From Candidatus Campbellbacteria bacterium GW2011_OD1_34_28 (lineage in GTDB: Bacteria; Patescibacteriota; Minisyncoccia; Phycocordibacterales; UBA12079), in NCBI GenBank assembly GCA_001029775.1, contig CP011215.1, forward strand, positions 1 to 32,147: a DNA stretch of 32,147 bases. The letters are read 5' to 3'. How positions within the stretch are numbered: position 1 is the first letter of the stretch; the number at the start of each line of letters is the position of its first letter. Position numbers and translations under genes: made by a program. This document shows, piece by piece, positions 4,212 through 11,279 of the stretch. The notes under the pieces are model-generated. The model did not search any database. It worked only from the letters and a program-made list of their open reading frames with translations, and was not told where the DNA came from.

Positions 4212-4243
4212 AAAAAACATCACTTTTGTAAGTGACGTTTTTG
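4212..4243 (-). terminator. terminator of the rRNA transcription unit
   Basis: On the minus strand the stem ACGTCACT/AGTGATGT (loop TACAAA) is followed by seven Ts. It lies just past the 5S region, and no other minus-strand unit ends here. Confidence 0.7.
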
Positions 4244-4347
4244 TCTAAAATTAAAACACTCTGTGTTGGCGCTTACCTACTTTCCCCATAAAAGACTTTG
4301 AATTTTTTGAGGAAAAATTCAAAGCAATAGAGAATCGGTTCTAGAAG

Positions 4348-4390
4348 CCTGCCTGCCGTGTCGTTGCTTTTCTTTCAGAAAAGAGGCAGG
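4348..4390. repeat. 43-bp dispersed repeat, copy A
   Basis: The unit begins CCTGCCTGCCGTGTCG, contains the hairpin CTTTTCTTTCAGAAAAG, and ends GAGGCAGG, so its ends (CCTGCCT/AGGCAGG) are inverted. It interrupts the outer 5S copy immediately after CTAGAAG. Confidence 0.75.
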
Positions 4391-4557
4391 GCTTCGAGTA
4401 AATCCCTCGCAAAGACGGATGACGCCGTGGATTGCTTCGCTTCGCTCGCAAAGACGAAGTTGGGCTTTGCCCAACTTCGTCAACGAATTTTCTGAAAGAA
4501 AATTCGTCTTCGCGAGCTTGCGAAGCGATCCAGAACGACGGACGACACCGTGGATTT
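4391..4557. repeat. repeat composite between two 43-bp copies
   Basis: The stretch contains CGTGGATTGCTTCG / CTCGCAAAGACG style words in both orientations, plus two hairpins (AAGTTGGGC/GCCCAACTT and ACGAATTTTCT/AGAAAATTCGT). The same word pair, ttgcgag with gaagcaatcc, brackets the hairpin at 24743-24829 and part of it recurs near 27421, so it looks like a mobile non-coding family. Confidence 0.6.
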
Positions 4558-4599
4558 CTGCCTGCCGTGTCGTTGCTTTTCTTTCAGAAAAGAGGCAGG
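4558..4599. repeat. 43-bp dispersed repeat, copy B
   Basis: Same unit as copy A and in direct orientation, lacking only the first C. The outer 5S sequence resumes immediately afterwards with GCTTAACTGCCGTGTG. Confidence 0.75.
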
Positions 4600-4637
4600 G
4601 CTTAACTGCCGTGTGCGGAACTTAAAAATCATCTTTA

Positions 4638-4794
4638 TTAAAAATAAAATAAGACACATTGTGTTGGCGCTTACCTACTTTCCCCATAAAAGAGTATCAT
4701 CGGTTCTAGAAGGCTTAACTGCCGTGTGCGGAATGAGAACGGGTGTACCCCTTCCGACGAAGCACCAACACAATGTGTCTTATTTTATTTTTAA
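4638..4794. repeat. 30-bp inverted repeat enclosing the intact 5S
   Basis: Arms 4638-4667 and 4765-4794 are perfectly complementary and include the first and last bases of 5S. Outside them, CTTAAAAATCA and TGATTTTTAAG (about 4621-4631 and 4805-4815) pair again, so the cassette forms one very long hairpin projecting from the outer 5S. Confidence 0.75.
4661..4771 (-). rRNA. rrf: 5S ribosomal RNA (intact copy)
   Basis: Read on the minus strand, this is a complete 5S of about 111 bases. It has terminal helix TGTTGGTGC/GCGCCAACA, helix III region ACACCCGTTC and ATTCCGCACACGG, the conserved AGTTAAGCC, and the 3' AAAGTAGGTAAGCGCC. It is enclosed by a 30-bp perfect stem (4638-4667 with 4765-4794), which would make a long RNase-processable precursor. 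It lies downstream of 23S and the tRNA in the same unit. Unusually, the whole cassette sits inside another 5S copy. Confidence 0.9.
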
Positions 4795-4838
4795 AATTTA
4801 ATGTTGATTTTTAAGAAACAGGAACGGGTGTCATATTG

Positions 4839-4894
4839 CTTTCATTTTACAAAATATTTAACCTAAACAAACTAAATATTTTGTAAAATGAAAG
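4839..4894. repeat. 22-bp perfect hairpin inserted in the outer 5S
   Basis: Arms CTTTCATTTTACAAAATA... (22 bases) enclose a 12-base loop. It separates GGAACGGGTGT from CCCTTCCGACG, which are continuous in the intact 5S. Confidence 0.75.
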
Positions 4895-4953
4895 CCCTTC
4901 CGACGAAGCACCAACATTAAATATACATTTTTTATATACTAAAAATCTAAAAA

Positions 4954-5033
4954 TTGAGAAGACTATACCAATACTGTATATACAAACTCGCGTTTGATAG
5001 TTACGACCGAGGTCGTCAGTATAGTCTTCTCAA
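4954..5033 (-). ncRNA. candidate structured spacer RNA, three-way junction
   Basis: A 15-bp perfect outer stem (TTGAGAAGACTATAC with its complement at 5019-5033) closes two inner hairpins on the minus strand: ACGAC-CTCG-GTCGT and CAAAC-GCGA-GTTTG, the second with a GNRA tetraloop. It lies between the tRNA and 5S in the rRNA transcript. It does not fit a tRNA cloverleaf. It may be a processing structure or an independent RNA. Confidence 0.45.
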
Positions 5034-5171: not shown

Positions 5172-5252
5172 TGGAGCAAGGGGCTGGATTTGAACCAGCG
5201 ACAACATAGCCTACTTAGGTTATGAGCTCTGTCCTGACTGAGCTACCCTTGC
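5172..5252 (-). tRNA. tRNA-like gene with a non-standard anticodon arm
   Basis: On the minus strand an 81-base cloverleaf begins GCAAGGG and ends CCCTTGC-T-CCA, so CCA is encoded. The D arm (GCTC/GAGC with GG in the loop) and T arm (GCTGG-TTCAAAT-CCAGC) are standard. The anticodon arm is not: CATAA and CTATG form at best four pairs plus an A-C mismatch around a ten-base loop (CCTAAGTAGG), instead of seven bases. The anticodon therefore cannot be assigned. The canonical loop string CTCATAA occurs slightly upstream but cannot be placed in a loop without breaking the D stem. The gene lies between 23S and 5S. It may be a decayed tRNA, a tRNA with a tiny insertion, or a tRNA-like processing signal. 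Confidence 0.7.
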
Positions 5253-5524
5253 CCACTATATATGAATAACAAGAAATTGTTTTTAAAATAAGAATCGTGT
5301 CCTTTGAAATTCCTAATAAGAAATGTCTCGATGCATTAGTACTCCTCGGCTGAACACATTACTGTGCTTACACCTAGAGCCTATCACCTGATCATCTCTC
5401 AGGGATCTTAAACGATTCCTAATCTTGAAGTTGGCTTCCCTCTTAGATGCTTTCAGAGGTTATCCATTCCCAACATAGCTACCCAGCGGTGCTCCTGGCG
5501 GAACAGCTGGTACACCAGAGGTTA

Positions 5525-5555
<31 letters not shown>

Positions 5556-5607
5556 ATCTTCTCAAGAATCAACGCCTGCAGCAGATAGGAGACCAACCTG
5601 TCTCACG

Positions 5608-6054
5608 CAATATGTAGCTGATAACTCTTAGCTTGTGACTAATAGTTTTCAACACCGTTATTACTAACGGGATCGGACTATAACTTCGTCTGATTTTTTA
5701 AAAAATCAGAGGTCAACATTTAGTCTCTACGGGCAAAAGAGTTTATAAAGTTTTTAAAGTTTCTAAAGTTAAAAGTTTTTTGAAAATCGTCGTGCGATTT
5801 TTAATACTTTATAAACTTTATGAACTTTCAACTTTTAACTCAGTTTTCCCTCGGTATTGTCCTCAAAAAAATGATAGGATTCTACCGATATAAGTTGACT
5901 TTTTCTCGTGAAAATTACTTTTCACGGACCGCCGTGTGGTTGGTTTCTTTTCTTTTTCATAGACGAAAAAACTCTATGTTTTGTTTTGATTCAGACTGTC
6001 GAATCGCGAAACAAGACTTTTTACTTGTTATTTGTCGAGAAGCTTCGCTTCTCG
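5608..6054 (-). ncRNA. group I intron at E. coli 23S position ~2593
   Basis: The 447-base insert interrupts ACCGU|CGUGAGACAG of the peptidyl-transferase region, normally continuous, between U2593 and C2594 in E. coli numbering. The 5' exon ends in U and the intron ends in G, as group I splicing requires. The P7-side signatures are visible: AGAGACTAAATG and GACGAAGTTATAGTCC. No homing endonuclease ORF is present. The peripheral part contains a long hairpin built of TTTATAAAG-like stutter words (about 5740-5845). Splicing is predicted, not shown. The 2593 site is a known group I intron site in other organisms. Confidence 0.85.
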
Positions 6055-6717
6055 ACGGTCTGAACCCAGCTCGCGTAACTTTTTAATTGGCGAACAGCCA
6101 AACCCTTGGGACCTTCTCCAGCCCCAGGATAAGTTGAGCCGACATCGAGGTGCCGAACATCGCCGTCGATATGAACTCTTAGGCGATACCAGCCTGTTAT
6201 CCCCAGGGTAGCTTTTATCCGTTAATCTTCACCCGCGTCTAATGCGAGGTGTCGGTTCACTATGCTCTGCTTTCGCACTTGTTCGGCATGCACGCCTCAC
6301 AATCAAGCCAGCTTGTGCCATTACACTATCAGCACGGTTTCCATTCGCGCTTAGCTGACCTTAATAGGCTCCTCCGTTACTTTTTAGGAGGATAGCGCCC
6401 CACTAAAACTACCTGCCAGATACTGTCTCCCGCCGTTTTTTCCGTCGAGATTAGAATGTACATTTTTAAAGAGTGGTATTTCACTGTTGACTCCAGACAA
6501 TCCAAAAACTGCCCTTCAAAGTCTCCCACCTATGCTACGCATCAAAAACATACACCCAATACCAAGCTATAGTAAAGCTCCTGGGGTCTTTTCGTCTAGC
6601 TGCAGGTAACCGGCATCTTCACCGGTATTGTATTTTCACCGAGCTGTTCCCCGAGACAGTACCCCACTCGTTACGCCATTCGTGCACGTCTACAATTACT
6701 AGACAAGGAATTTCGCT

Positions 6718-7101
6718 CAAATTTGTTACTCCTTTGAAAAATCAAAGTGGACAGCTTTTTCTGTCTCTACATATCGCTATGTAGTTCGGACTATACTTTC
6801 TAAGTATTTACTTAGTCTAGCGTTTAGTCTCTGAGGATTTTAAAAACTGAGATTCAATTTTTAATCTTTCCTGCTGATTGTCCGCACTGATCGGATTTTT
6901 ACTGCTACAAAAAATGTAGCGAGTACCTTCAGATTCTCGGATTTTCCAGCATATAGCTAGATTTTTTTGACATTCATCATAATTAAATGATAAATAGGCA
7001 ACTTTAATTCCTTAAATTATTAATGCACAAACTATCTATCTTGTTTATCGTGTAAACATAACAGTCCCAGTCATCGTACCCCCTAAAAATTAAGAGATAC
7101 G
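6718..7101 (-). ncRNA. group I intron at E. coli 23S position ~1931
   Basis: The 384-base insert splits GGTCCTAAGGT|AGCGAAATTCC just after helix 69, i.e. between U1931 and A1932, close to the known I-CeuI target. The exon ends in U and the intron ends in G. Group I core strings TCAGAGACTAAACG and AAAGTATAGTCCG are present in the right order. There is no ORF for an endonuclease. Intron sequence differs from the intron at 5608-6054 outside the core, so they were probably acquired separately. Confidence 0.85.
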
Positions 7102-7136
<35 letters not shown>

Positions 7137-7162
7137 CAGGGCTTATATCAGACAGCACGCTC

Positions 7163-7290
7163 CTCGCTTCGCTCGGAGCAAGTATTAAGTAATAAGGATT
7201 AAGTAATAAGTAAAAATTTGCAAAGCAAATTTTTCGTTTCTTACTACTTACACCTTACTACTGCTTACTTGCGTTCCAAACGCAGTGAGG
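7163..7290. repeat. 23S helix expansion made of stutter repeats
   Basis: AAGTAATAAG-type words on one side face CTTACTACTT-type words on the other, around AAAAATTTGC-aaa-GCAAATTTTT, giving a long imperfect hairpin within 23S. The same words occur in intergenic gaps at 14661-14729, 22455-22480 and 30239-30299. Confidence 0.6.
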
Positions 7291-8746
7291 AACGTACCAC
7301 CAATATTTAACCTTCTGGCATTGGTCAGGCGTCACCCCCTATACATCCTCTTGCGAGTTCGCAGGGAGCTGTGTTTTTGATAAACAGTCGGCAGGGTTAC
7401 TTTCGCTGCGGCCCCTCCTTTTACAGAAGGGCAAGCCTTATTCCGAAGTTACGGCTGCTATTTTGCCGAGTTCCTTGGGGAATTATCACTCGTTCGCCTT
7501 GGTCTTCTCGACCTGACTACCTGTGTCGGTTTACGGTACGGGTTCTTTATACTTAACCTTAGAAGCTTTTCTTGGAAGGCTCTTCGTAAGAATTTTCCAA
7601 CCCGAGGGAAGAAATTTAATCTATTTACGAAATTCGACATTAAAGTCAGTTTCCCGGATTTTCCTAAGAAACAATTCTTAAAATAAAATACACAAATCCA
7701 ATAATGTGCTCTTACTTGTGTCCTCCGTCACTCCATCGAAATATAAAGAAGTTACGGAATATTAACCGTATGTCCATCAGATCCGGTTTTCACCATCTCC
7801 TTAGGCCCGACTAACCCTTCGCTGATCACCATTGCGAAGGAAACCTTAGTCTTTCGGCGTGCAGGGATCTCACCTGCATTGCGGTTACTTGTGCCAACAT
7901 TCTCGCTTCTGTACGCTCCACCATGGCTTACGCCTTTGGCTTCATTGCAGAACAGAATGCTCTCCTACCACGCCACATTAAAAATGTGACATCCTAACCT
8001 TCGGTACCATACTTAGCCCCGATTATTTGCGGCGCAATATCTCTTGATGAGTGAGCTGTTACGCTATCTTTAAAGGATGGCTGCTTCTAAGCCAACCTCC
8101 TCATTGTCTGAGAAATTTCACCTCCTTAAGTGCACTTAGTATGAATTTTGGGACCTTAGATGTAGGTCTGGGCTGTTTCCCTTTTGACCAATGGAGCTTA
8201 GCCCCCACAGTCTAACTGCCTAGAAATTGACTACTGGTATTCGGAGTTTGATAGGATTGACGAAGTTTCCCCCTATTCAATCCTTCCAGTGCTCTACCCC
8301 CAGTAGGTAATCTAGACGCTAACCCTAAAGCTATTTCGGAGAGAACCAGCTATTACCAAGTTCGATTAGCTTTTCACTACTTGCCACAAGTCATCCGATA
8401 GAGTTGAACGACTAACCGGTTCGGGCCTCCTTCCGTCTTTCGACGAAATTCACCCTGCTCATGGCAAGCTCACTTGGCTTCGGGTCCTAAACATACAACT
8501 TAATTTTTTCGCGCTATTCACACTCGCTTTCGCTGTGCCTCCTTGCTAACGCAATTAGGCAGCTGCATATTTAGACTCGTTGGCTCATTCTTCAATAGGC
8601 ACGCGGTCACCGTCGCATCTTGCTATGCAAGATGCGACGAAATTAAAAATTTATCATTTATAATTCCGTCGTTCTTACGCAGTAAGATACGACGGCTCCC
8701 ACTCCTTGTAGGCATATGGTTTCAGGTCTATTTCACTCCCCTCTCC

Positions 8747-8789
<43 letters not shown>

Positions 8790-9000
8790 ATCTCTAAAAG
8801 TATTTAGCCTTACCGGTTAGTTCCGGCAGATTCCCCCAAGCCATTCGTGTCTTGAGGTACTCAGGAACAACAATAAAAAAGATAGATTGTTTTCGTTTAC
8901 GGGACTATTACCCTCTAGGGTCCTGCTTCCCAGCAGATTCAACTAACAAAATATTTTTTGACTTTTTTCATTACAAGAATGACACTGTTGTCCTACAACC

Positions 9001-9127
9001 CCAGCACATCACATGAAATATGATGTGCGAGTTAAAAGTAAAAAGTTAAAAGTCGCAAGTTAAAAACTTTTGACTTTATAAACTTTATAAACTTTATACT
9101 CACATCACATGCCATGTGATGTGCTGG
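9001..9127. repeat. 23S helix expansion with 15-bp perfect ends
   Basis: CCAGCACATCACATG and its complement close an insert filled with GTTAAAAGT / ACTTTATAA stutter words. It extends a 23S domain I helix near AGAGCCCAAACC. Confidence 0.6.
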
Positions 9128-9593
9128 TTTGGGCTCTTTCGCTTTCGCTCGCCGCTACTTACGAAATATTATCTAAATAAATAGACATTGTTTTCTTTTC
9201 CTCTGGGTACTGAGATGTTTCACTTCCCCAGGTGCACTCCGAGTATCCTTTACAGATACAAGGTAATCTGTGTTCAACAGATTGGGTTCCCCCATTCGGA
9301 AATCTCCGGATCACAGGTTGCTAGTCACCTACCCGAAGCTTATCGCAGACATGCCACGTCCTTCATCGCCTTTTAGAGTCAAGGCATCCACCATACGCCC
9401 TTATGAATTTCTTATTAGGAAATTCAAAAAACGCAATTCTTATTTTAATACAATTTTTACCTACAGATCTATAAATTTTAAAAAATTTAAAACTTAAAGA
9501 CCCATTAATTGATTTGTCTCTGGTATAAGACAAATCACTTGTTATTCATTTTTCAACGAACATTTCATTCAGCCATTTAATCTTACAGTCTCG

Positions 9594-11236: not shown

Positions 11237-11279
11237 CCTGCCTGCCGTGTCGTTGCTTTTCTTTCAGAAAAGAGGCAGG
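11237..11279. repeat. 43-bp dispersed repeat, copy C
   Basis: Identical to copy A in the 5S region. It interrupts a run of TATAAAG stutter words: GTTTATAAAG precedes it and TTTGTAAAG follows. Confidence 0.75.

Follow-up and report, generated by a model that had tools for sequence, protein, structure and literature searches.

In bacterial 23S ribosomal RNA (rRNA), intervening sequences are removed by RNase III. Inserts are likewise found in 5S rRNA: expansion segments are known in both bacteria and archaea, with nucleotides (nt) 34-37 of loop C forming a known, little-obstructed site (Stepanov & Fox 2021, PMC7812874). Additionally, 5S pseudogenes with inserts have been reported (PMC7812874), and the 5S rRNA of Halococcus morrhuae carries an insert of 108 nt (PMC7530397). 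A survey of rRNA insertions in bacteria of the candidate phyla radiation (CPR), based on Rfam hits and a cut-off of 100 bp, recorded none in 645 5S genes (PMC11270868). Here, we describe a locus in the first 32,147 nt of contig CP011215.1 of Candidatus Campbellbacteria bacterium GW2011_OD1_34_28 (henceforth the window), in which an intact 5S rRNA gene (4661-4771) sits in loop C of a second, split 5S copy (4262-4916), both on the minus strand.

As in the expanded 5S rRNAs (PMC7812874), the insert in the window makes use of loop C. Unlike in those molecules, however, it is an entire 5S gene, its host is an older and in most cases broken copy, the only intact 5S of the genome is the insert itself, and layers of this kind stack. 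Neither the word nested nor the word Patescibacteria occurs in that paper. The CPR genes surveyed (PMC11270868) belong to the same kind of organism and are similarly rich in inserts, the 23S rRNA gene of the window containing a group I intron; split 5S copies score below the Rfam threshold, which would explain why outer copies were missed in that survey. With 23S intervening sequences the locus shares a hairpin-based insert in an rRNA loop and possible excision at a stem, given an inverted repeat of 35 nt and an RNase III gene, whereas here the insert is an rRNA gene and its host copy is probably defunct in this genome. Tandem and partial 5S duplications also provide extra full or partial adjacent copies in the order (loci L014, L081, L088 and L105), but lack the nested arrangement, the coincident split points and the self-complementary outer flanks. 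Finally, the inner unit has terminal inverted repeats like a transposable element or miniature inverted-repeat transposable element, yet no target-site duplication was seen and the 5S unit is not dispersed, in contrast to a 252-nt insert at the same locus. In agreement with the original prediction, which knew of no described 5S within a 5S, literature searches covering mostly non-subscription papers found no published case.

Anatomy of the nested locus

The inner gene (4661..4771, minus strand) is full length by comparison with Rfam RF00001, matching model positions 1-120 at 4769-4662 with 66.2 bits (gathering score 38), and is the only 5S that Rfam detects in this genome (G000), a single contig of 752,630 bp. 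It presumably serves as the working 5S. Together with a long flanking inverted repeat, the processing stem, it forms a unit (4638..4794, minus strand) that is predicted to fold as a single hairpin of -69.5 kcal/mol. A processing stem of 30 bp had been anticipated; the stem is indeed present, but its arms (4638-4672 and 4760-4794) measure 35 nt and are 97% complementary. A short extra inverted repeat, CTTAAAAATCA / TGATTTTTAAG, extends the loop C insert to the split point, giving a total of 201 nt (4621..4821, minus strand).

Five pieces, all on the minus strand and in 5S order, make up the outer copy: nt 2-23 (4895..4916, 22/22 identical to the inner copy), nt 26-35 (4822..4831, 10/10), nt 39-60 (4599..4620, 22/22), nt 61-73 (4334..4346, 13/13) and nt 79-112 (4262..4295, 34/34), where nt numbers refer to 5S positions here and below. 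The predicted nesting, with outer pieces flanking the intact gene in the right order, is thus borne out, without a single substitution over 101 nt. Ten nucleotides are missing at the breaks (nt 24-25, 36-38 and 74-78). A search of the whole genome did not find 5S pieces elsewhere, and the outer copy gives no match to Rfam RF00001 even at an E value of 10.

Three further inserts, all on the minus strand, interrupt the outer copy. The first is a hairpin with a perfect 23-bp stem (4832..4894), which proved to be 63 nt long instead of the 56 nt originally proposed; the other two, a repeat composite and a small hairpin, are as predicted. Among four genomes searched, the 63-nt hairpin occurs only at this locus and in a congener, G004 (54/63 identical), and judging from this distribution its insertion is most likely common to both by descent. 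The repeat composite of 252 nt (4347..4598) lies in the 3' strand of helix II and is dispersed, the repeat matching 62 times in G000 and 61 times in G004. The repeat family is palindromic, with a 46-nt unit beginning CTGCCTGCCGTGTCGTTGC, and another copy lies near position 11241 of the window. The third insert, a 38-nt hairpin (4296..4333), takes the place of nt 74-78, the GAUAC of loop E. The insert in loop C folds on a stem of its own; the other inserts remove core 5S bases. With loop E incomplete and the 3' strand of helix II interrupted, the outer copy no longer has an intact 5S fold, and for these reasons we regard it as probably a dead relic. A fragmented rRNA with expansion segments, the second option of the original prediction, is therefore unsupported in this genome, which also has an intact 5S, although it is possible in relatives with complete outer copies.

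On the minus strand, the rRNA operon runs from the 23S rRNA gene (5315..9414, Rfam RF02541) through a tRNA-like sequence (5252-5172) and the 5S region to a terminator-like hairpin (4213..4242, minus strand) directly past the 3' end of the outer 5S. Because this hairpin follows the outer 3' end, the outer 5S belongs to the rRNA transcription unit; a similar hairpin follows the G004 locus. In the 5S region no Rfam match to a group I or group II intron was obtained, the sole intron match being the group I intron at 7001-6767 inside the 23S rRNA gene. The tRNA-like sequence (5172-5252, minus strand) between 23S and 5S has an unreadable anticodon (ARAGORN 'aagt') and allows a reading in which the anticodon stem has 7 bp and the loop 6 nt. 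All four differences from G004 fall in the anticodon arm, those in the stem preserving or improving pairing, and the sequence may be a processing element instead of a tRNA. Between it and the 5S lies a perfect 15-bp stem, TTGAGAAGACTATAC/GTATAGTCTTCTCAA (4954-5033, minus strand); G004 carries a different hairpin at the equivalent position.

Relatives and the order of the copies

Exact matches to the window 5S were found in public metagenome-assembled genomes of Ca. Campbellbacteria and Paceibacterota, which places G000 in the Patescibacteria (CPR). The comparison of related genomes that had been called for revealed not plain tandem 5S genes but the same nesting in the congeners G004 and G003. 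In G004 (contig JAQTWD010000001.1), the inner 5S occupies the same loop C position in an outer copy without its 3' end. G003 has three 5S layers, the outermost lacking its 3' half and the middle one being a complete 5S that is split in loop C only and holds an insert homologous to window positions 4621..4821. One plain 5S is present in G002 (Ca. Campbellbacteria RIFOXYC2_FULL_35_25). The flanks of the G003 middle-layer insert resemble those of the window inner unit (34/45), and those of the innermost G003 copy resemble those of the G004 inner unit (43/54 and 38/44), showing that layers have been shared and lost across the genus. Moreover, the outer 5' flank of G004 is still complementary to the outer 3' flank of the window (18/19), which identifies them as the two sides of one old 5S unit.

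Where relatives without the insertion permit a test, it is the outer copy that represents the older, native gene, with the inner copy as the newcomer. The outer pieces of G266 match the single 5S of its congener G288 at 34/34 (5' half), 19/21 and 11/11 (3' end) positions, and lie at the orthologous native place of the G288 gene, flanks and downstream DNA included; the 23S 3' ends of the two genomes are 98.5% identical. The inner copy of G266 differs mostly in helix I. Likewise, the outer helix I of G228 has the unusual CTCC/GGAG pairs that are seen in its congener G015. The outer copy of G057 matches the intact inner 5S of G197 (35/36, 29/31 and 23/25) with similar flanks, indicating that the same layer is whole in G197 and split by a further 5S in G057; both genomes also hold remnants of a yet older layer. 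These cases, together with the dispersed nature of the 252-nt insert, support the proposal that a relic 5S acted as a landing pad for repeats and a 5S cassette.

Once the outer halves were joined computationally for pairing and folding calculations, their 5' and 3' helix I strands paired fully (12/12 in G057, 11/11 in G266 and G228), while pairing of the outer strands with the inner copy was less extensive (9 and 8 in G057, 8 and 9 in G266 and G228). In G266 and G228 it is the inner copy that changed. Such changes would help both copies to fold apart, which may be their purpose. Comparison of the nearest neighbours in 5S and 23S 3' end gave no support for a horizontal origin of inner copies: they group with their own genus in G000, G004 and G266, and the remaining cases lack neighbours close enough for a verdict.

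Nested 5S copies across the order

As relaxed-threshold Rfam searches miss outer copies, 141 5S loci of this order of Patescibacteria were surveyed by searching the 600 nt to either side of each gene with both a profile and the 5S of the locus itself. Extra 5S fragments were present on the same strand at 32 of the 141 loci and on the opposite strand at three, two of which are hairpin self-matches. This asymmetry, combined with the matches of the larger outer pieces of the window in a search against the whole genome (E values from 4e-5 to 1e-11), excludes chance resemblance. All 20 partial fragments located upstream are confined to nt 1-60, the 5' parts (P about 9e-8 for fragments ending by nt 60 under a uniform distribution over nt 20-110, treating loci as independent although the genomes are related), and 16 of the 18 downstream, including those of L078 and L126, hold only nt 34 onward, the 3' parts. 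In the rest of the phylum, fragments were found at three of 68 loci; of these, at least L167 is nested, with its split near nt 57/59.

Nesting with outer pieces on both sides occurs in this genus and in genomes from about ten further families (G057, G266, G046, G228, G197, G084, G177 and G055, and less completely G219, G063 and G251), family counts resting on the genome handles of the search tool. Split sites lie at nt 36/39 in this genus, 43/44 in G057, G266, G046 and G084, 41/44 in G197, 48/50 in G228 and about 57-60 in G177 and G359. All are in loop C, helix III or loop B, and none in helix I or the helix IV-V arm. Possible causes of this bias are that only these sites keep the old 5S working until takeover, or that the underlying event targets exposed loops. 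From their sequences, stacks of three layers can be read in G003 and probably in G055, and of two layers plus an older relic in G057.

Several fragments turned out to be of another nature. The downstream matches at L078 and L126 were rejected as outer copies, being expansions of the sole 5S. Hairpin expansions in the helix IV arm of a sole 5S are seen at L126 (G187, 250-402), L078 (G033, 1177-1304) and L137 (G089), and are apparently unreported for Patescibacteria. Loci L085, L088 and L105 were discarded as nested outer copies as well, since they look like tandem partial copies. These lie downstream of the intact gene and are broken by related inserts near nt 25 (the GGTCACAC site) and nt 55, two sites that look like preferred targets of one repeat family across genera.

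Origin and meaning of the nesting

We consider recurrent local nested duplication, in which the inner unit replaces the former native 5S, the likely explanation of these loci. Each nesting would result from a single local duplication or insertion event that places a complete and newer 5S unit, processing stem included, at the tip of the arm II/III of the resident 5S. The inner 5S would be transcribed from the same operon, fold by itself and be released from its long stem through ordinary processing. With an intact inner 5S available, constraint on the outer copy would relax, and this copy would then gain dispersed repeats and hairpins and erode. A next 5S unit landing in an arm of the current one would stack the generations, and layers would be removed by deletion or by recombination between repeats.

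Several observations weigh against this explanation. There are no substitutions in the 101 outer nt of the window, although the nesting predates the split between G000 and G004, and the hairpin insert shared by these genomes has changed at 9/63 sites while the outer 5S pieces are unchanged. A dead copy is expected to change unless gene conversion or selection acts; either selection or gene conversion from the inner copy could explain the unchanged 101 nt. In G003, the 5' half of the split middle copy agrees with the genus consensus at 34/34 positions and that of the intact innermost copy at 29/34. Inspection of the junctions by eye revealed no target-site duplication, and the split coordinates in relatives are themselves a by-eye reading of printed sequence.

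An unlikely alternative dispenses with insertion altogether: flank plus 5' half and 3' half plus flank would each have undergone a partial tandem duplication, in two separate events, to give the sequence 5' half, whole gene, 3' half. This would yield the same fragment polarity, and for this reason polarity by itself was dropped as proof of insertion. The order does contain partial 3' tandem copies whose breakpoints lie elsewhere (L088, starting at about nt 16, L105 and L085), and at some loci the 5' half stands alone (L038, L068). However, at about ten loci the end of the 5' piece and the start of the 3' piece nearly coincide (36/39, 43/44, 41/44, 48/50 and 57/59), which two independent events would not produce, and on the basis of these coincident split points a single insertion appears the favoured course. 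Moreover, the outer flanks are complementary to one another and unlike the inner flanks, and in G266 the outer copy lies with its own flanks at the orthologous native place of the G288 gene.

It also seems rather improbable that the outer copy continues to function as a 5S in at least two pieces, with RNase III excising the inner 5S like a 23S-type intervening sequence, helices I-III keeping the nicked outer 5S together and one locus giving rise to two kinds of 5S. In keeping with this possibility, the outer halves pair coherently, the window pieces are free of substitutions, the outer copy of G228 and the split middle copy of G003 are complete, the latter also being well conserved, the nested inserts keep to positions where working 5S rRNAs are known to accommodate expansions (PMC7812874), and an RNase III gene is present in the genome. 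Coherent pairing can nevertheless predate the insertion. The window copy has lost nt 74-78 of loop E, and the 252-nt repeat interrupts its helix II; the 3' half is missing in G004 and in the outermost layer of G003; and the outer copy of G266 differs from the G288 gene, with one change in helix III. A more restricted version strikes us as doubtful too, namely that in some of these bacteria an RNase III-type cut frees the inner 5S, the nicked outer 5S also enters ribosomes and the diverged inner helix I/II prevent mispairing.

We give still less credence to the inner unit being a mobile 5S cassette, bounded by terminal inverted repeats, that a transposase such as the Y1/IS200-like enzymes encoded here would move and direct to 5S loops. 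The inverted repeat does extend to the split point, flank stems reach 45-60 bp at the window locus and at L033, L034, L047, L008 and L110, compared with a median of 22 at plain loci, several families share a GCCCCG...CGGGG base stem at their split sites, and a Y1 transposase gene lies at 1577-2275, one of three in the genome. This IS200/REP-type gene, on the minus strand, is located near the 5S locus. Yet the 5S unit occurs at this locus only, with no ectopic copies in the genome; the junctions show no target-site duplication; split sites vary by lineage; and the inner copies of G000, G004 and G266 are nearest to the 5S of their own genus. An assembly or binning artefact can be dismissed for practical purposes: although these are metagenome-type genomes, known here from assemblies and not from reads, independently assembled congeners share nested layers with diverged flanks and inserts, and nesting is seen in many families.

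Our analysis carries a warning for Rfam-based surveys, the CPR rRNA insertion survey included, as they overlook split 5S copies. Should outer copies work after all, the locus would represent an rRNA gene with two products. Under recurrent local nested duplication, an essential and usually single-copy RNA gene would have been replaced from inside, repeatedly, within one bacterial order. A single locus would then form a fossil record of gene generations and provide a natural test of which regions of 5S rRNA tolerate large inserts.
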